From a virus, in IMG/VR virus record IMGVR_UViG_3300027906_000061, positions 1-36,832 of that record: a stretch of DNA of 36,832 nt; one strand, written 5' to 3'. Position numbers and translations under genes: made by a program. Within the stretch, counting starts at the first letter, position 1; every line of letters begins with the position of its first letter. The notes under the pieces are model-generated. The model was not told the DNA's origin. It worked only from the letters and a program-made list of their open reading frames with translations, and did not search any database. Shown piece by piece: positions 2,902-35,693 of this stretch.

Positions 2902-3120
2902 ATGGCAGATCCAGTGGAACAACCACCAGAGGCAGTACTTGATACAGCTGATTTGATATCGAATAATAAGAGAGCAGAAGCAATTGATGCAATACAAGAT
3001 TTATTGTATGCACGTGCCGCAGATGCTATGGGTTCATACAAGAAGACCGTAGCTAAAACATTTTTCGATGAACCAAAGGTAGAGGAACCATCTAATGAAA
3101 CTGATAACGGAAGCAATTGA
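2902..3120 (+). CDS. Probable prohead core protein (gp67/gp68 position)
   Basis: A 72-aa acidic protein between portal and prohead protease, where T4 carries the small prohead core proteins gp67 and gp68. The sequence has an acidic, proline-rich N-terminus, a helical middle (NNKRAEAIDAIQDLLYARA) and the segment DAMGSYKKTVAKTFF. The acidic tail EPKVEEPSNETDNGSN resembles core proteins trimmed by gp21. The assignment rests on position and composition; I did not see a decisive motif. The last 26 bases overlap the gp21 start, an unusually long overlap for this module. Confidence 0.6.
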   Translation: MADPVEQPPEAVLDTADLISNNKRAEAIDAIQDLLYARAADAMGSYKKTVAKTFFDEPKVEEPSNETDNGSN

Positions 3121-3739
3121 ACAAGTAGAGGTTATTACCGAAGAGAAGGACGGTAAGAAACAGTTATACATAGAGGGCGTTTTTCTTCAGTCTGAACTGA
3201 AGAACCGCAACGGTCGTGTATATCCGTTTGGAGTCCTTGAGAAAGAAGTATCCCGCTACAACGAAGAATATATTAAAACAAGTCGTGCTCTGGGTGAGTT
3301 GGGGCATCCTGATGGTCCTACTGTCAATCTCGACAGAGTATCACACAGAATCACAGAACTGCGAGCCGAAGGCACGAACTTCGTTGGGAAGGCTATGATC
3401 TTAGGTACACCTATGGGTCAAATTGCCAGTAATCTTTTAGGTGAAGGTGTCAGACTGGGTGTATCATCCAGAGGCATGGGTTCAATTGACAAGCGAGAGG
3501 ATGCAAACTATGTTTGTGACGACTTCATGCTTGCCACTGCTGCCGACATTGTTGCCGACCCTTCCGCACCAGACGCTTTCGTTAATGGAATCATGGAAGG
3601 TAAAGAGTGGGTCTGGGATAATGGCATACTTAAGGAGACTAAAGTTGCTAAATATAAGAGTTACATTGACGATGCTACTCGTCAAAACCTAGAGGAAAGA
3701 ACACTTAAAGTGTTCGACAACTTCCTACAAGGCTTGTAA
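3095..3739 (+). CDS. 21: Prohead core protease gp21
   Basis: This serine protease cleaves scaffold and capsid proteins during prohead maturation. The product is 214 aa, like T4 gp21 (212). The U9/S80-type protease pattern is visible: IEGVFLQSELKNRNGRVYP near the N-terminus, the catalytic His in GELGHPDGP (His71), then VRLGVSSRGMGSI with the candidate Ser at 124-125, and the later DIVADPSAPDAFVNGIME. The ATG at 3095 gives a full-length N-terminus and lies inside the end of the preceding core gene, so the two may be translationally coupled. Predicted targets are gp22, gp23 and the small core protein. Confidence 0.95.
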   Translation: MKLITEAIEQVEVITEEKDGKKQLYIEGVFLQSELKNRNGRVYPFGVLEKEVSRYNEEYIKTSRALGELGHPDGPTVNLDRVSHRITELRAEGTNFVGKAMILGTPMGQIASNLLGEGVRLGVSSRGMGSIDKREDANYVCDDFMLATAADIVADPSAPDAFVNGIMEGKEWVWDNGILKETKVAKYKSYIDDATRQNLEERTLKVFDNFLQGL

Positions 3740-7206: not shown

Positions 7207-7719
7207 ATGGCTGCCGAATGGTATAAGGAGCAACCTACAAATAGAAACTATCTATCTCCAACTGGGTTTCAGTTCGATCTGGAACTCTTTTCAGGGGTAG
7301 ATTTCTTTTGTCAATCTGTAAATATCCCAGACATTACAATGCCTGTTGTTGAGGTACAGAGTGCTTTCAGGGGTATACCTATACCTGGAAGTGGTGGTGT
7401 GCAGTTTGGTGATCTTAATGTAAGCTTTCTAATCGATGAAGATCTTAAGAACTACATGTCAATCCAAAATTGGATTAGGGAGTTCGGACTCTCAGAAGGT
7501 CATGCATCTGGGTTGGATACAACTTCAAGAGCAACCTTGCAAGTCCTTACCTCTAATTTTAATGGGAATTTCTACGTCAACTTTGAAGAAATATTCCCAG
7601 TAGCATTAAGTGGTGTTAACTTCGATGCTACCCCTACAGACATTGATTATATAACAGCAACTGCAACATTCAAATTCACCAGATATAATATACAGACGGA
7701 ACAAGGCACTAATTTATGA
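7207..7719 (+). CDS. 3: Tail completion / sheath stabiliser protein gp3
   Basis: A 170-aa protein of the tail-tube superfamily (T4 gp3 is 176 aa), which caps the tube end before head joining. The support is: (a) tube-like features, with FQFDLELFSGVDFFCQSVNIPDI near residues 20-40 and DLNVSFLIDEDLKNYMSIQNWI near 75-95, which is how gp19-type proteins read; (b) the position between gp23 and uvsY, where T4-like cyanophages carry gene 3. It overlaps uvsY by 4 bases. A tube-initiator (gp54-like) role cannot be excluded from sequence alone. Confidence 0.75.
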   Translation: MAAEWYKEQPTNRNYLSPTGFQFDLELFSGVDFFCQSVNIPDITMPVVEVQSAFRGIPIPGSGGVQFGDLNVSFLIDEDLKNYMSIQNWIREFGLSEGHASGLDTTSRATLQVLTSNFNGNFYVNFEEIFPVALSGVNFDATPTDIDYITATATFKFTRYNIQTEQGTNL

Positions 7720-15123: not shown

Positions 15124-17367
15124 ATGGCATTCGAGCATCAATCACGTCAGAGACAGGAGATCAAAGGTAATCTTGCAAAACTTCTTGCGACAGAGAACCT
15201 TATAGTAGAGCACAGGAATGATATTCCTACTGCTTCATTTGATGTAGATCGTAGAGTTCTTCAACTACCACAGTGGGATAAGGCAAGTGGTGTTGTGTAT
15301 GATATGCTTGTAGGTCATGAAGTTGGACATGCTTTATATACTCCTAATGAAGATTATACTGACTATGTACAATGTCCACAAGATTATGTGAACGTTGTAG
15401 AAGACGTACGTATTGAGAAATTCATGAAGCGTAAGTATCCTGGTCTACGCAAGAGTTTTGCTGGTGGATACAAAGAATTAAATGATCAAGATTTTTTTCA
15501 AATCGAAGGTGAGAATATTGCAGGACTTATATTGATTGATCGTATCAACCTACACTATAAGGTTGGTCCTACTGCATTGATTCCATTTTCAGATTCCGAA
15601 CTTGGTTTTGTTGCTCGTGTAGAACAGACAGAAACATTTGAAGAAGTATGTGCTCTAGCAGATGAGATCTATCAGTATACTAAAGCAGAGAACGAAAGGA
15701 AGCAGAAGGAAGCAGACGTACCTAATCTTAGTGGATTAGAATTGGATGGTGAATCTGAAGATGGTGAGCAGGAAGATTCTAAATTGGAACAACCATCACA
15801 ACCACCAGGTGAAGGTGAAGGAGATGAAGAAGATCCTAAAGTAGATCAAGATTATGAGACTAGTTCTGGTGGATCAACAACAGGTGGTTCTACTCCTGGA
15901 AATGAAGGTGGACAAGAAGGTGCAGAAGAATCTAAAACACAAAGATCATTTGATGGTTCTGCTTCTCAACTTTCTAGTTCTGGTGGGTACAATATTAAGT
16001 ACTTCGAGATTCCAGATTCTGTTGACTTAGATGATTATCTTGTTGACTGGGTAGAGGTTCATGATTGGATAGATTCCAGATTTGCTCAAGCACCAGAACC
16101 AAAGATTTCTATGGGTGAAGATGGTACAGTTTATTGGAAACAGACAGGGTTGGATGATGCAGATTCTGAGTATGCTTCTCATAGAAAAGAAGCACAGAAA
16201 GAAGTAAACTATCTTGTCAAAGAGTTTGAGTGTCGTAAGTCTGCTGATGCATATGCACGTGCTAGTACTGCTAAAACTGGTGTACTTGATTGCACCAAAC
16301 TTCATACCTATAAGTACAATGAAGATCTATTCAAGAAGGTAACTGTTGTACCTGATGGTAAGAATCATGGATTGATATTCTTACTAGACTGGTCTGGATC
16401 AATGGCAGATCAATTACATGCAACTTACAAACAACTTCTTAACCTTACTGCATTCTGTAAGAAGGTTCAGATTCCGTTTGAAGTATATGCTTTCACTAAT
16501 GAGTGGAGAATTGTTGATCTAATAAAGAGTAATGATCCAGAAGCACATTCTTATTATTATCATGATAGGAATACTGAACCACCAAAATTGGGTGAGTTCC
16601 ATCTTCCAAAAGGTGAATTGCATTTAATGAATATTCTTTCATCACGTAGTAACTCACGTGATTATGAAAGACAATGCAGAAACATCTGGAGAATAACATA
16701 TGCTTACCATATTAATCGTGGTGGGTGCTATCAGATTCCAGAAGGTATGAATCTTTCTGGTACTCCATTGAATGAAGCAGTTGTTATGCTTAACTATATC
16801 ATTCCCAAATTCAAACAAGCGAATGATCTTCAGAAAGTGAATGCAGTTATTCTTACTGATGGTGAAGCATGCTGTTCTGGTTATGGAAGACAGACTGATC
16901 CTGACAGAAGAGAACCAAGAGTTTATCCTAGCAAGATAGGTTATGGTAATGCCTTACGTGATCGCAAGACAGGTATCGTATACAAGCCATTAACCAATTC
17001 ATATGTTGGTTTGACTAATCAACTATTGAATCAAGTTCGGGATAGAAACACTGGAGTTAATGTTATAGGATTTAGAATCATGAGTGGTAGCAGACTCCAA
17101 GAGTTTGTTTGCAGATACTCCAAGCTTGGATCAAACTACAGTGAGATACAGTCTGAATGGAGAAAGCACAAGTCTGTTATTGTTCCAAATCCACTTGGGT
17201 ACACTGCTCTCTATGCCATACAACAAACCGCACTTGACAACACTACAGAGTTTGATGTAGAATCAGGATCTAAGAAGGCAGACATCTCCAGAGCATTTAA
17301 AAAAATGTTGAAGTCTAAGTCTTCCAACAAGAAGTTGTTGAATTCTTTTATAGGGTACGTTGCTTGA
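15124..17367 (+). CDS. CobT-like protein with metallopeptidase motif and VWA domain
   Basis: A 747-aa protein in three parts. Residues 1-200 hold a gluzincin-like zinc motif HEVGH (65-69) with NVVEDVRIE about 25 residues on, as expected for the third ligand. Residues about 205-280 are an acidic Gly/Pro/Ser linker (GEGEGDEEDPK, SSGGSTTGGS) like that of CobT. The C-terminal part is a von Willebrand A domain with an intact MIDAS: LLDWSGS (D422-x-S-x-S426), SGTPLNEAV and ILTDGEA. It pairs with the CobS-type AAA+ ATPase at 18043, as CobT pairs with CobS in cobalt chelatase. CobT itself is not known to me to keep HExxH, so a protease role is possible. No clear promoter; only a TATACT at 15089. Confidence 0.75.
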   Translation: MAFEHQSRQRQEIKGNLAKLLATENLIVEHRNDIPTASFDVDRRVLQLPQWDKASGVVYDMLVGHEVGHALYTPNEDYTDYVQCPQDYVNVVEDVRIEKFMKRKYPGLRKSFAGGYKELNDQDFFQIEGENIAGLILIDRINLHYKVGPTALIPFSDSELGFVARVEQTETFEEVCALADEIYQYTKAENERKQKEADVPNLSGLELDGESEDGEQEDSKLEQPSQPPGEGEGDEEDPKVDQDYETSSGGSTTGGSTPGNEGGQEGAEESKTQRSFDGSASQLSSSGGYNIKYFEIPDSVDLDDYLVDWVEVHDWIDSRFAQAPEPKISMGEDGTVYWKQTGLDDADSEYASHRKEAQKEVNYLVKEFECRKSADAYARASTAKTGVLDCTKLHTYKYNEDLFKKVTVVPDGKNHGLIFLLDWSGSMADQLHATYKQLLNLTAFCKKVQIPFEVYAFTNEWRIVDLIKSNDPEAHSYYYHDRNTEPPKLGEFHLPKGELHLMNILSSRSNSRDYERQCRNIWRITYAYHINRGGCYQIPEGMNLSGTPLNEAVVMLNYIIPKFKQANDLQKVNAVILTDGEACCSGYGRQTDPDRREPRVYPSKIGYGNALRDRKTGIVYKPLTNSYVGLTNQLLNQVRDRNTGVNVIGFRIMSGSRLQEFVCRYSKLGSNYSEIQSEWRKHKSVIVPNPLGYTALYAIQQTALDNTTEFDVESGSKKADISRAFKKMLKSKSSNKKLLNSFIGYVA

Positions 17368-17392
17368 CAATTACCCTTTACCATATTATACT
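17364..17392 (+). promoter_or_regulatory. Sigma70-type promoter upstream of the 184-aa protein
   Basis: TTGACA (17364-17369, overlapping the end of the VWA gene), 17-base spacer, TATACT (17387-17392). The hexamers and spacing are identical to those before gp55 and the gene at 25199. Gene start is 31 bases downstream of the -10. Confidence 0.82.
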
Positions 17393-17422
17393 ATACTAAA
17401 GTAGGCCAAATCTAACAAATCT

Positions 17423-17977
17423 ATGAGAAAACTCAAACAATTGTGTCCAGAATACAAACAGTACGAAAATTTCCATAACGATAAAATTTTCACTATGGCT
17501 CTAAAACGCCAGATCCATGAAAATCCAGAAGGAAGTCAGTTGAAGTTCACGAAGAAGTGTGCTAAGAGTTACTTCAGGGATAAGTACCCAAAGGTCTACA
17601 AGGAAATGACTGAGAAAGATTGGAACGATGTTTCCAAACGTTTGAGTGCCATCTTTCAAAAGAACAAGAACGTAGTCCCTGCTTTATATAAATTCCGACC
17701 CCACCTTCCTAACTTATTCCAGCAGAGTAAGCAGGTTCATCAAGGTAGTGTCAACTTCGGTGAAGATTTTGATCTATATGATGATCCTATAGTTGGTACT
17801 GAGGCTACACTTCCAGTAGAAGAAGACATTCCAATACAGGAGGTTCTTAATTTCGACACACCTGCACCTAAAGCACCACGTAGTGAAACTGGGGAATGGA
17901 TGGATAGGTACTTTGAGAAGTCATCTAGTGTCACACTGACGCTACCAGACAACACAAAGATCCAGTTCAACAAGTGA
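17423..17977 (+). CDS. Hypothetical protein, 184 aa
   Basis: Sits alone between a sigma70-type promoter and a strong terminator, so it has its own transcript, most likely early. The first 100 residues are basic and helical (LKQLCPEYKQYENFHNDKIF, FTKKCAKSYFRDKYPKVYKE, KDWNDVSKRLSAIFQKNK). Residues 115-160 are acidic and Pro-rich, and the end is a basic strand pair (SVTLTLPDNTKIQFNK). The basic helical half could bind DNA or RNA. No family recognised. Its place between the CobT-like and CobS-like genes suggests a possible link, but the separate promoter and terminator argue for independent control. Confidence 0.75.
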   Translation: MRKLKQLCPEYKQYENFHNDKIFTMALKRQIHENPEGSQLKFTKKCAKSYFRDKYPKVYKEMTEKDWNDVSKRLSAIFQKNKNVVPALYKFRPHLPNLFQQSKQVHQGSVNFGEDFDLYDDPIVGTEATLPVEEDIPIQEVLNFDTPAPKAPRSETGEWMDRYFEKSSSVTLTLPDNTKIQFNK

Positions 17978-17984
17978 CACACGA

Positions 17985-18007
17985 CCCCTCCACAAGGAGG
18001 GGTTTTT
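17985..18007 (+). terminator. Rho-independent terminator before cobS
   Basis: Seven-base perfect stem CCCCTCC (17985-17991) / GGAGGGG (17996-18002), loop ACAA, then five T (18003-18007). It separates the 184-aa gene from the CobS-like gene, which therefore needs its own promoter or read-through. Confidence 0.92.
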
Positions 18008-18042
18008 CATTATAATAAGTACATACAAACAAATTAGAAAAA

Positions 18043-19134
18043 ATGCCAGCAAAGTCTGATCTAACAACCACCCAACTTGTGAACTACCTATCTGACAAAC
18101 ATGGATCAGATATAAATGCAGATCATGTACGTGAGGCAGCGGCGCATTTTGGAGTCGGTTATGCAACTACAACAAAACGTTTACGTAGTTTTTATGTACA
18201 ACGTGGTACATGGAATATTGAGAAGGTTAAGGATCAACTTGAAAGACAGATCACTTCCCCTTCTGTTATCCCAGAAATTCAACAGAATTTGAAACCACAA
18301 AAGGATCCAAACTTTGTTCCCTTTGGAAACTTCTCTGATGTTAAGAAAATTATATCATCTAAACTATTCTATCCTACGTTCATCACTGGACTCTCAGGGA
18401 ATGGTAAGACACTTAGTGTAGAGCAAGCATGTGCTCAACTAAATAGGGAACTCATTCGTGTAAACATTACTATTGAAACTGACGAAGATGATCTTATTGG
18501 TGGGTTCCGTCTTGTTAATGGTGCAACTGCTTGGCACAACGGACCTGTTGTCGAGGCTTTGGAGAGGGGAGCTATACTCCTTTTAGATGAAGTTGATCTT
18601 GCCTCTAATAAGATCTTGTGTCTTCAATCTATCTTGGAAGGCAAGGGTGTATTCCTTAAGAAGATTGGTAAGTATGTTGATAGAAAACCAGGATTCAATG
18701 TCATTGCTACTGCCAATACTAAAGGTAAGGGTAGTGAGGATGGTAGGTTCATTGGTACTAATGTATTGAATGAAGCATTCCTAGAAAGATTTGCATTGAC
18801 ATTTGAGCAAGAGTATCCTTCTGTTAAGACTGAGCAAAAGATTCTTGAGAAAGTATCTGGTAACTTAGGTGTACTTGATGAAGCATTCTGTGCTAACCTT
18901 GCTAACTGGTCTGACATTATTCGCAGAACATTTAAGGATGGTGGTATCGATGAGGTTATTTCAACTCGTAGATTGGTACACATCATTCGTGCTTTTGCTA
19001 TCTGGCAGGATCGTTTGAAAGCAATTAAGTTATGTGTTAATCGTTTCGATGATGAAACAAAGCAGTCATTCTTAGATTTGTATGATAAGATTGATGCAGA
19101 CATTCAAGTCGATCCAGATGTATCAGATCTTTAA
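18043..19134 (+). CDS. cobS: CobS-like AAA+ ATPase (MoxR type)
   Basis: A 363-aa AAA+ ATPase like the CobS motor of aerobic cobaltochelatase, long known as an auxiliary gene in T4-like cyanophages. Seen: Walker A GLSGNGKT (116-123), the IETDEDDLIGGF pore-loop region (144-155), Walker B ILLLDEVD (178-185), the ATANT sensor-1 (222-226) and the ISTRRLVHIIRAF sensor-2 region near 315. The first 65 residues form a helix-turn-helix-like domain (TTQLVNYLSDKHG...ATTTKRLRSFY). Its partner is probably the VWA protein at 15124. Whether the pair inserts cobalt, inserts another metal, or remodels proteins as MoxR-VWA pairs do is open. Confidence 0.85.
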   Translation: MPAKSDLTTTQLVNYLSDKHGSDINADHVREAAAHFGVGYATTTKRLRSFYVQRGTWNIEKVKDQLERQITSPSVIPEIQQNLKPQKDPNFVPFGNFSDVKKIISSKLFYPTFITGLSGNGKTLSVEQACAQLNRELIRVNITIETDEDDLIGGFRLVNGATAWHNGPVVEALERGAILLLDEVDLASNKILCLQSILEGKGVFLKKIGKYVDRKPGFNVIATANTKGKGSEDGRFIGTNVLNEAFLERFALTFEQEYPSVKTEQKILEKVSGNLGVLDEAFCANLANWSDIIRRTFKDGGIDEVISTRRLVHIIRAFAIWQDRLKAIKLCVNRFDDETKQSFLDLYDKIDADIQVDPDVSDL

Positions 19135-19309: not shown

Positions 19310-19469
19310 ATCAGGAGATTGTAAGTTTATTGGTAGTGTCATCTCCCTTAAGGGTGGTGCCACTGCCAGAGTACTCAACGTTCGTGAGGATAAGATTTCT
19401 ATTTTAAATCTTGACGGTTCTCACAAAGAGTGCTATTATGAAGAGATTCAGTATGTATGGACACCTTGA
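19302..19469 (+). CDS. Small beta-rich protein, 55 aa
   Basis: ATG at 19302 overlaps the previous stop by 8 bases. The strand pattern CKFIGSVISLKGGATARVLNV / DKISILNLDGSHKECYYEEI suggests an SH3-like barrel, similar in style to the 70-aa protein at 35481. Its TGA shares a base with the next start (TGATG). Function unknown. Confidence 0.55.
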   Translation: MIKSGDCKFIGSVISLKGGATARVLNVREDKISILNLDGSHKECYYEEIQYVWTP

Positions 19470-19777
19470 TGAAATATAATGAAGATGAACTCCTCAAGGA
19501 GATTCACGATTATATTAGCAGTACCTATAGGGGTCATTACTCCGCAGGTAACGTGCAAACCCTTGACCTCATTGATTCGGTAGGAGATGCAGAAGCATTT
19601 TGCAGAAGCAATGTTCTCAAATATGCCTCACGTTATGATCGCAAAGGATCAGCACGTAAGGATATCATAAAGATCATTCACTATGGTCTATTACTCCTAC
19701 ACTTTAATGATAAGACTGCGAGAGCAGATTCTATGGCCAGTACCTCTACCACATTCACCGTTGATTATGACAAGTAA
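19469..19777 (+). CDS. DUF3310-like protein (possible nucleotide kinase type)
   Basis: 102 aa from ATG 19469 (an in-frame ATG at 19457 adds four residues; the TGATG overlap favours 19469). The pattern HY...G.V...D.I......AFCRSNVLKYASRYDRKG..RKDIIKIIHYG is the DUF3310 signature, found in many phage proteins including T7 gp1.7, which acts on thymidine nucleotides. Activity here is not shown by sequence. It overlaps gp45 by 11 bases, so it is translated together with the clamp. Confidence 0.75.
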   Translation: MKYNEDELLKEIHDYISSTYRGHYSAGNVQTLDLIDSVGDAEAFCRSNVLKYASRYDRKGSARKDIIKIIHYGLLLLHFNDKTARADSMASTSTTFTVDYDK

Positions 19778-20435
19778 AGTAAAATTATCCCAAAACACAA
19801 TAGATGTACTGGGAAACTATTGTTCAATCAATTCCAGTATTGTTTTTAGGAAAGGAAATGTTATCAGAACCATCAGTAACGCAGAGAACATCTTATCTAA
19901 GTATACCTGCGAGGAAAGCTTTCCAGATGACTTCGCTATATATGACCTTAGTCAGTTTCTGGTCGGTCTCGGTCTGTTTGACAGTCCTGAACTGGACTTC
20001 ATGGGTAGGGATTTTGTCACTATTCGTGGCGGTCGTCAGTCAGCTAAGTATTATTTTAGTGACCCTGAGATTACGCTCAAGTCTGCTCCAGAGAAAAATG
20101 TAAAATTTCCTGGTGGTAATATCGAGTTTGATGTTACTAGTTCTGATCTCTCAAATCTTGGTAAAGCATCTAGGTGCTATGATCTTCCAGATCTAACCTT
20201 TGATACAACCAAAGGAAATATCAGACTCATTCTTAGAGACAAAGAGAATGATACTACCAACACATTCGAACAGAATGTTGATGGTACATTTGATCAGGAG
20301 TATTCTCTTAACATTAAGTATGAGAATGTTAGATTGGTTCTTGGAGACTATCGTGTGAAAGTATCTGACCAATTGATTTCTGAATGGTCTCACAAGAATC
20401 TTGACCTGACCTATTACATTGCACTAGAGCCTTGA
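19767..20435 (+). CDS. 45: Sliding clamp gp45
   Basis: The trimeric DNA clamp that gives gp43 its processivity and activates gp55 late transcription. From the ATG at 19767 (MTSKVKLSQNTIDVLGNYC...) the product is 222 aa, like T4 gp45 (228). The family pattern is clear: the N-terminal LSQNTIDVLGNYCSINSSIVFRKG, YDLSQFLVGLGLFD with the conserved 'FL..L.L.....' helix, and the repeated clamp half near LRDKENDTTNTFEQN. An ATG at 19683 lies in the preceding gene and would add an unrelated N-terminus. The stop overlaps the next start (TTGA). Confidence 0.95.
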   Translation: MTSKVKLSQNTIDVLGNYCSINSSIVFRKGNVIRTISNAENILSKYTCEESFPDDFAIYDLSQFLVGLGLFDSPELDFMGRDFVTIRGGRQSAKYYFSDPEITLKSAPEKNVKFPGGNIEFDVTSSDLSNLGKASRCYDLPDLTFDTTKGNIRLILRDKENDTTNTFEQNVDGTFDQEYSLNIKYENVRLVLGDYRVKVSDQLISEWSHKNLDLTYYIALEP

Positions 20436-21007
20436 GTTTAAAGTATCCTCACCTTAAAGATTACATTTTTAAAGTGAATCTTCTACCAGAGGATCTGTGT
20501 GATAATGTAATCAAGAGATTGGAGAAGAAAGATAGGTGGGAAGATCATGGTTGGTACGATGCTAAAGATCAATCTTCATATAGTAAAGGTGACTTTTCTA
20601 CAGTAAAGAATGATAAGTGTCGTCAAAAGATCTTTCCATATATTAGAGACCTCTGTATACAATACAACAAAAAGTATTTTATTAAAGAGAATACCAATTC
20701 TGATATCTTTTGGTCAACTACAGGTGACATGAAGTTTAACAAATATAGTGTTGGTGAATCCATTGAACCACACCATGATCATATCCATGATATGTTTGAT
20801 GGTAAGATTCGTGGTATCCCTACCACTAGTTTGATTGGTGTACTAAACGATGATTATGAAGGTGGAGAACTTCTATTCTGGAATGAGCATCGGGTAGATT
20901 TGAAGAAGGGTGATGTTGTAGCGTTCCCTTCTGTGTTTTTATTTCCACATGAAGTCACGACAGTGACTAGTGGTATACGTTATTCTTGGGTTACTTGGTG
21001 CGTTTAA
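20432..21007 (+). CDS. 2OG-Fe(II) oxygenase, prolyl-4-hydroxylase-like (TTG start)
   Basis: A 191-aa dioxygenase that would use 2-oxoglutarate, O2 and Fe(II). The facial triad is visible: H114-x-D116 in EPHHDHIHD and the distal H173 in FPHEV, with the 2OG-binding R183 in SGIRYSWVTW. The double-stranded beta-helix runs from about 95 to 190 (LIGVLNDDYEGGELLFW is the typical centre). The start is a TTG at 20432 overlapping the gp45 stop (TTGA); the first ATG would remove about 100 residues including conserved N-terminal helices. Substrate unknown; P4H-like phage enzymes are widespread in cyanophages. Shares the last base with the gp44 start. Confidence 0.88.
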   Translation: MSLKYPHLKDYIFKVNLLPEDLCDNVIKRLEKKDRWEDHGWYDAKDQSSYSKGDFSTVKNDKCRQKIFPYIRDLCIQYNKKYFIKENTNSDIFWSTTGDMKFNKYSVGESIEPHHDHIHDMFDGKIRGIPTTSLIGVLNDDYEGGELLFWNEHRVDLKKGDVVAFPSVFLFPHEVTTVTSGIRYSWVTWCV

Positions 21008-35484: not shown

Positions 35485-35693
35485 AAGATTTCAAGAAACT
35501 GAGAGAGCAGTCTATAAGGCAACAACATAGACATAATGAAGGATATTCTGTCGGTGACAGAGTAATGAATGCTATTTCAGGTGAGAAAGGAACCATCCAC
35601 AGGACAGGTGTTAACTACGTTATCTGTGTTACTGAGGGTGGTGAGATGTTTCGTGCATGGGTAAAGGATATTCGTACTATAAATAGATCATAG
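35481..35693 (+). CDS. Small SH3/KOW-like protein, 70 aa
   Basis: After a basic helix (MKDFKKLREQSIRQQHRHNE) comes a typical KOW/SH3-like barrel pattern: YSVGDRVMNAISGEKGTIHRTG, NYVICVTEGGEMFRAWVKDI. 'VGDRV....G.KGTI' is how such domains start. KOW-type folds often bind RNA or ribosomal partners; nothing more can be said. Contains a late promoter motif near its stop. Confidence 0.65.
   Translation: MKDFKKLREQSIRQQHRHNEGYSVGDRVMNAISGEKGTIHRTGVNYVICVTEGGEMFRAWVKDIRTINRS
35678..35685 (+). promoter_or_regulatory. Late promoter motif TATAAATA upstream of the zinc-knuckle gene
   Basis: Exact T4 late consensus TATAAATA within the end of the SH3-like gene, 28 bases before the ATG at 35714. It suggests late expression of the zinc-knuckle protein. 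Confidence 0.55.

Follow-up and report, generated by a model that had tools for sequence, protein, structure and literature searches.

A cyanophage VWA protein with a conserved zincin site and its CobS-like AAA+ partner: a probable metalloprotease machine distantly related to CobST

The stretch of DNA analysed here (the window) is a 36.8-kb fragment (36,832 nucleotides) of a T4-like cyanophage, held as IMG/VR virus record IMGVR_UViG_3300027906_000061. Between positions 15,124 and 19,134 it encodes a VWA protein and a CobS-like AAA+ ATPase, the latter being cyanophage cobS, which belongs to the gene core of marine T4-like cyanophages and usually figures as an auxiliary metabolic gene for vitamin B12. 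A sequence-only reading of this DNA had proposed that the two form a MoxR/VWA metallopeptidase rather than a metal-inserting system. The features of the pair, all on the + strand, are given below.

15124-17367, +: gene for the 747-residue VWA protein with an N-terminal zincin domain (phrog_459, 'peptidase', E 5.9e-262; AlphaFold2 (AF2) model)
15157-15498, +: zincin (metallopeptidase-fold) domain, residues ~12-125 (AF2 of residues 1-200; structural matches mostly zincins)
15316-15330, +: HEVGH active-site motif, residues 65-69 (conserved in cyanophages, gone from genuine CobT)
15391-15417, +: NVVEDVRIE, residues 90-98 (conservation; helix 86-104 of the model)
15715-15993, +: variable acidic/glycine-rich linker, residues 198-290 (low predicted local distance difference test score, pLDDT; mean majority-residue fraction 0.33)
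16150-16266, +: long helix, residues 343-381, 5' of the VWA core, a possible counterpart to part of the NorD finger
16351-17238, +: VWA domain, residues ~410-705 (structure matches)
16387-16401, +: DWSGS of the metal ion-dependent adhesion site (MIDAS), residues 422-426, completed by T547 (16762-16764) and D579 (16858-16860)
18043-19134, +: gene for the 363-residue CobS-like MoxR-type AAA+ ATPase (phrog_249, E 7.7e-136; AAA_5, E 1.3e-19)
18388-18411, +: Walker A GLSGNGKT, residues 116-123 (invariant except L117 in 72 sequences)
18577-18597, +: Walker B LLLDEVD, residues 179-185 (D182 and E183 in 70/70)

The sequence-only reading placed an intact HEVGH and an intact NVVEDVRIE in the VWA protein, and both were found exactly there, as H65-E66-V67-G68-H69 and N90-VVEDVRI-E98. 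When the window protein was aligned with 80 IMG/VR orthologues not chosen by motif, H65, E66, G68, H69, N90, E93, D94, R96, and E98 were identical in 81/81 sequences and V67 was kept in 80/81. That reading had been made to depend on conservation of HEVGH in close homologues, and the catalytic residues proved invariant throughout this set. Among 78 N-terminal domains with identity down to 15%, the only invariant columns were P49, H65, E66, H69, T73, E93, D94, and G107, the rows having been picked with a motif filter that 194 of 203 loci passed; given this filter, the very small chance figure obtained for catalytic invariance in these 78 rows is not taken as a test. Eight of the nine loci that failed had no N-terminal part found in frame and the ninth has HEVGH; HExxH is present in 194-195 of the 195 loci having the domain. 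The zincin domain is the most conserved part of the VWA protein. E93 and D94, invariant and 24-25 residues past H69, lie on the next helix, and E93 is a likely third metal ligand. The VWA protein, which is T4-GC 146 of the cyanophage core, was found in at least 463 phage records, almost all of them cyanophages and many already labelled 'peptidase'.

The isolated N-terminal 200 residues were modelled by AF2 with a mean pLDDT of 90.2 and a predicted TM-score (pTM) of 0.85, with HEVGH on helix 56-72 and E93 on helix 86-104. The best Foldseek matches of this domain in the PDB were ArdC (first), selecase, jannalysin, M61, and IrrE-like proteins (best E 0.023), the leading matches being metallopeptidases or zincin-fold proteins, and essentially all 50 rows from VIA-align were zincins. 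VIA-align Z scores were 6.4 for selecase (over 96 residues), 6.3 for ArdC, 6.1 for BlaR1, 5.8 for ZMPSTE24, 5.4 for IrrE, 4.9 for SPRTN, and 4.4 for Wss1, modest values, since the tool warns that a Z below 8 may reflect a common arrangement only. Single matches are weak, but the zincin fold is convincing because the match list is coherent and because of the helix positions of HEVGH and E93; in the model, the domain adopts this fold and its active-site helix carries HExxH. The small zincins (selecase, ArdC, IrrE/PprI, SPRTN/Wss1) have an HExxH zincin fold in common with the N-domain, but they lack an AAA+/VWA partner in the same architecture and their identity to it is low (7-16%). Predicted viral structures with the same domain include proteins named CobT or VWFA and a Haloarcula tailed-virus protein.

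The remainder of the 747-residue protein is a VWA/MIDAS protein, with DxSxS...T...D and the VWA fold. The MIDAS that the sequence-only reading saw at D422-W-S-G-S426 is present and is completed by T547 and D579; none of D422, S424, S426, T547, and D579 varies among the 54 full-length orthologues aligned (identity down to 42%). The C-terminal part matches the MIDAS domain of MDN1 (Z 15.7) and the VWA domain of NorD (Z 15.3). Midasin (Rea1/MDN1) therefore offers the closest VWA/MIDAS fold, and its AAA+ domains are related to the CobS-like protein, but it is a single giant polypeptide of ribosome assembly. NorQ/NorD likewise pairs a MoxR-type AAA+ ATPase with a structurally close VWA partner; it differs in inserting iron in nitric oxide reductase, and the NorQ/NorD literature consulted does not mention a peptidase in the portions concerned. 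No recognisable NorD open reading frame (ORF) was present in an unannotated 49-kb stretch of pSymA, where one was sought for comparison of N-domains.

The CobS-like protein is a MoxR-type AAA+ ATPase, with an AAA_5 match (71.1 bits against a cut-off of 22), Walker A and B, sensor 1, and arginine finger, the motifs being invariant. Its best full-AAA+ match in the PDB is CobS (69.6 bits). Midasin was rejected as its closest relative, since the best single midasin domain scored 40.8 bits and the 164-bit total is misleading because it is summed over repeats. At least 80% of the ATPase is covered in 461 records. Wherever a cyanophage contig runs on for more than 0.9 kb after the VWA gene, the AAA+ gene follows (74/74 loci); in the six loci without it, the contig ends 0-876 bases past the VWA gene.

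Genuine cobaltochelatase CobT differs from the phage protein at the predicted peptidase site. We aligned 30 alphaproteobacterial CobTs, taken from PF06213 matches, with the phage proteins, and the phage segment GFLDHEVGHLLFTD aligned with RGFADAFALRLKLHD-like segments of CobT. In 30/30, the first H is replaced by A or S (or P, G, Q), E by a non-acidic residue, and the second H by R, K, or another residue, as anticipated by the sequence-only reading, which did not expect HExxH in a true CobT. A by-eye match of HHDxxxH of CobT to HEVGH was rejected, as the multiple alignment puts HHD downstream. Most genuine CobTs retain the later ExARxE motif (27/30 by simple pattern). The VWA protein has no match to PF06213 or PF11775 (CobT N-domain and CobT_C) at E<=1, the profile comparison of the cyanophage N-domain with genuine CobT was weak (E 0.006, probability 6%), and the CobS-like protein scored 63.4 bits against a cut-off of 558.55 for the curated CobS equivalog TIGR01650. 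Phage-plasmid CobT-like proteins match PF06213 (E 2.6e-23) and carry HEVGH, and profile comparisons of the cyanophage N-domains gave E 3.5e-10 against phage-plasmid N-domains and E 4.8e-10 against plasmid VWA N-domains. Homology of the N-domain with CobT is supported because of these HEVGH-bearing, PF06213-matching intermediates and the profile comparisons and, on sequence grounds, the phage pair is a distant relative of CobST linked via the phage-plasmid proteins. It resembles CobNST in pairing an AAA+ protein with a VWA/MIDAS protein, in the N-domain homology, and in retaining an ExARxE-like motif, but differs in the H, E, and H missing from CobT, in the absence of CobN (not found in 10/10 phage genomes checked), in scores below the curated cut-offs, and in the clade of its ATPase. 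In an AAA+ domain tree, chelatase CobS formed one clade (100/99) joined to roseophage-type ATPases with an HExxH-keeping partner, whereas the cyanophage ATPases grouped with Pelagibacter-type and Ochrobactrum phage ATPases.

We consider it likely that the gene pair encodes an ATP-dependent, MIDAS-dependent zinc metalloprotease machine distantly related to CobST. As in its family, the CobS-like protein would form a MoxR-type AAA+ ring, and the shared VWA fold and AAA+/VWA pairing suggest that the VWA protein docks on this ring as NorD does on NorQ. The MIDAS may grip an acidic group of the substrate or of the VWA protein's own linker, and the VWA protein would present the substrate to its zincin domain, where H65 and H69, probably with E93, would hold the metal while E66 activates water and the peptide bond is cut. 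The machine would most likely act in the DNA replication/recombination phase on a protein engaged in DNA work, whether of the phage replisome or a DNA-bound protein of the host; this is favoured because of the location of the pair, the substrate being the least certain part. The MoxR/VWA metallopeptidase of the sequence-only reading thus gains in silico support from the zincin fold, the invariant residues, the intact and adjacent AAA+ partner, and the loss of H, E, and H from genuine CobT and is the best-supported reading, qualified in that the pair is distant kin of CobST and that some phage members lack the motif.

The location is as follows. Genes for tail tube, portal, gp21 protease, scaffold, and capsid occupy 0.5-6.4 kb of the window; they are followed by UvsY and a UvsW-like helicase (7.7-9.7 kb), gp47 and gp46 (12.0-15.1 kb), and, further on, DNA polymerase, UvsX, and gp41 (25.8-30.9 kb). 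The order 3' of gp46 is VWA protein, small ORF, CobS-like ATPase, DUF3310 ORF, gp45, 2-oxoglutarate (2OG) oxygenase, and gp44, so that the pair lies with gp46/gp47 and gp45/gp44. In three further groups, replication/recombination genes were within 5 kb of the pair in 41/43, 26/37, and 23/24 loci, and in the roseophage-type group one (endonuclease V) was within that distance in 4/11; the T4-like groups are not independent, since gene order is inherited. DNA polymerase III alpha is adjacent to the pair, or close by, in SSU5, hairong, ANB28, and X66.

Several observations weigh against a protease. Besides the modest structural Z scores noted above, HExxH is lost while the AAA+/VWA pair is kept in Pseudomonas phage hairong (SEIAK; L257, 3489-5567), Stenotrophomonas phage ANB28 (REVST; L258, 3486-5471), and an A. 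baumannii plasmid (QEVAK; L261, 3989-5911). Since these three lineages keep the pair, the machine can matter without a live peptidase; the activity has possibly been lost repeatedly in them. The location beside replication genes is in T4-like phages partly inherited synteny, and it names no substrate.

Motif loss in these three relatives speaks for the idea that the pair is a non-proteolytic MoxR/VWA chaperone, in which the zincin domain binds metal or substrate and the target is remodelled uncut. So do NorQ/NorD and RavA/ViaA, for whose action the sections of the literature consulted report no proteolysis. We regard this as unlikely. E66, which metal binding alone does not need, is invariant along with both histidines, and genuine CobT, with its histidines gone, has lost the E too.

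A second alternative is a virion assembly protease or chaperone that processes structural proteins. This role was proposed for the pairs of group 2.2 jumbo phages (PMC7824862), in a passage that predicts the same architecture of a MoxR ATPase and a vWA protein with an N-terminal metallopeptidase, places cyanophages in group 2.1, and cites MoxR-vWA systems in tail assembly of an archaeal virus. The cyanophage pair differs in standing in a replication/recombination block, and the phage already encodes its own head maturation protease:

3095-3739: gp21-type head maturation protease

Capsid, portal, gp21, and tail tube queries found no match near the pair, a test confined to T4-like loci, for which alone these queries are suited. 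Among cyanophage-core proteins, only T4-GC 15 and 190 are reported as virion structural in the relevant part of PMC3037559, the VWA protein being T4-GC 146, and the T4 late-promoter motif TATAAATA was not found 5' of either the VWA gene or the CobS-like gene. Because of the replication-gene location, the gp21 protease that the phage already has, and the proteins reported from virions, a virion-processing role is less likely, and we hold it to be quite unlikely.

More doubtful still is a counter-defence or host-takeover protease, a sub-case of the metalloprotease in which the substrate would be a defence or regulatory protein of the host. In its favour, the genes are not part of the structural block and ArdC, an antirestriction zincin, came first in Foldseek, but the likeness to ArdC is an unspecific one of fold, and the VWA gene is a near-universal, syntenic core gene rather than a patchy one. 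PADLOC gave no defence-system match, and membership of such a system was rejected on that result.

The remaining alternative makes the pair a viral CobST. Of 41 sampled Synechococcaceae genomes, 40 had a CobN match (31 above the cut-off), none had a CobT match, and one had a CobS-like match; this last genome also contains a phage contig that encodes the VWA protein. Phages and phage-plasmids of E. coli, Klebsiella, and Acinetobacter carry related pairs, as do Pelagibacter phages; to our knowledge, these hosts are not known for aerobic CobN. That the pair replaces the missing CobS and CobT and drives cobalt insertion by host CobN, raising B12 (PMC8651126), is improbable despite the presence of CobN, the distant kinship with CobST, and CobS being the closest solved full-AAA+ relative, since genuine CobT has lost the HExxH that cyanophage proteins keep invariant, the curated CobT and CobS models are not matched, the cyanophage ATPases fall in a clade apart from chelatase CobS, related pairs serve phages of the hosts just named, ChlI/ChlD are considered the CobN partners in cyanobacteria (PMC9227772), and CobN would have to accept a partner that departs from CobT precisely at the predicted peptidase site.

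The literature is divided over these genes. PMC8651126, where it deals with them, treats the cyanophage genes as cobST and calls the peptidase annotation of cobT a mistake, as against the metallopeptidase predicted in PMC7824862; the relevant passages of neither report an activity test, and PMC9983427, at the point where it takes up cyanophage cobS, gives it as unknown whether the gene acts in cobalamin synthesis. Between the first two, our data favour the peptidase, though not clearly the virion role. New here is domain-level evidence of a real, conserved peptidase site in cyanophages that is lost in genuine CobT and in some other phage lineages. If the pair is a protease, a highly abundant gene has been misread ecologically as a B12 gene, AAA+/VWA machines can cut as well as insert metal, and an origin is suggested for the N-domain of cobaltochelatase CobT. 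Since the AAA+ tree is unrooted, leaves out NorQ and other MoxR groups, and has several long rows, a protease-first direction is something we infer: it is possible, if short of probable, that CobST-type machines were ancestrally AAA+-driven metalloproteases of mobile elements, that cyanophage cobS is such a motor and not a B12 gene, and that the zincin domain of CobT died on recruitment to metal insertion.

Further relatives were seen outside cyanophages. Plasmid pTK9001 (L094, 136-4690) encodes an AAA ATPase, DUF3150, and an HEVSH-bearing VWA protein, adjoining a toprim gene, and we read these genes as the plasmid counterpart of such a predicted machine. Two viral-contig scans with OC and pTK9001 proteins gave no matches. 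Staphylococcus phage 'porphyrin biosynthesis' ATPases (L086, 3815-4933) were rejected as further pairs, no VWA or zincin partner being seen nearby; their B12 label looks unfounded. Cellular relatives in genome contigs came to only eight matches, several of them in metagenome-assembled genomes and apparently on phage contigs. Bins labelled Gammaproteobacteria, Chloroflexi, Phycisphaerae, Flavobacteriales, and Parcubacteria (L101, L103, L104, L106, and L107) hold the phage gene, probably as phage contigs.

One further ORF lies within the locus:

17423-17977, +: 184-residue ORF between the VWA and CobS-like genes, probably not part of the machine (4/80 loci)

Family searches gave it no convincing match, and it was rejected as a third component, being accessory and recognised in only those loci. 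A terminator-like hairpin with a T tail lies at 17983-18004, just 5' of the CobS-like gene, and a promoter-like site (17989-18016) overlaps it; regional counts are near chance. The DUF3310 ORF (19457-19777) stands consistently between the CobS-like gene and gp45 in related loci, and the 2OG-Fe(II) oxygenase (20432-21007), between gp45 and gp44, was recognised there in only 2/80. Elsewhere in the window, TATAAATA occurs at 1125-1132 and 35678-35685, 26-28 bases 5' of ORF starts (portal, 1159; ORF, 35714), with a total count equal to chance, and two ORFs (523-1107 and 7207-7719) match the tail tube family phrog_45.

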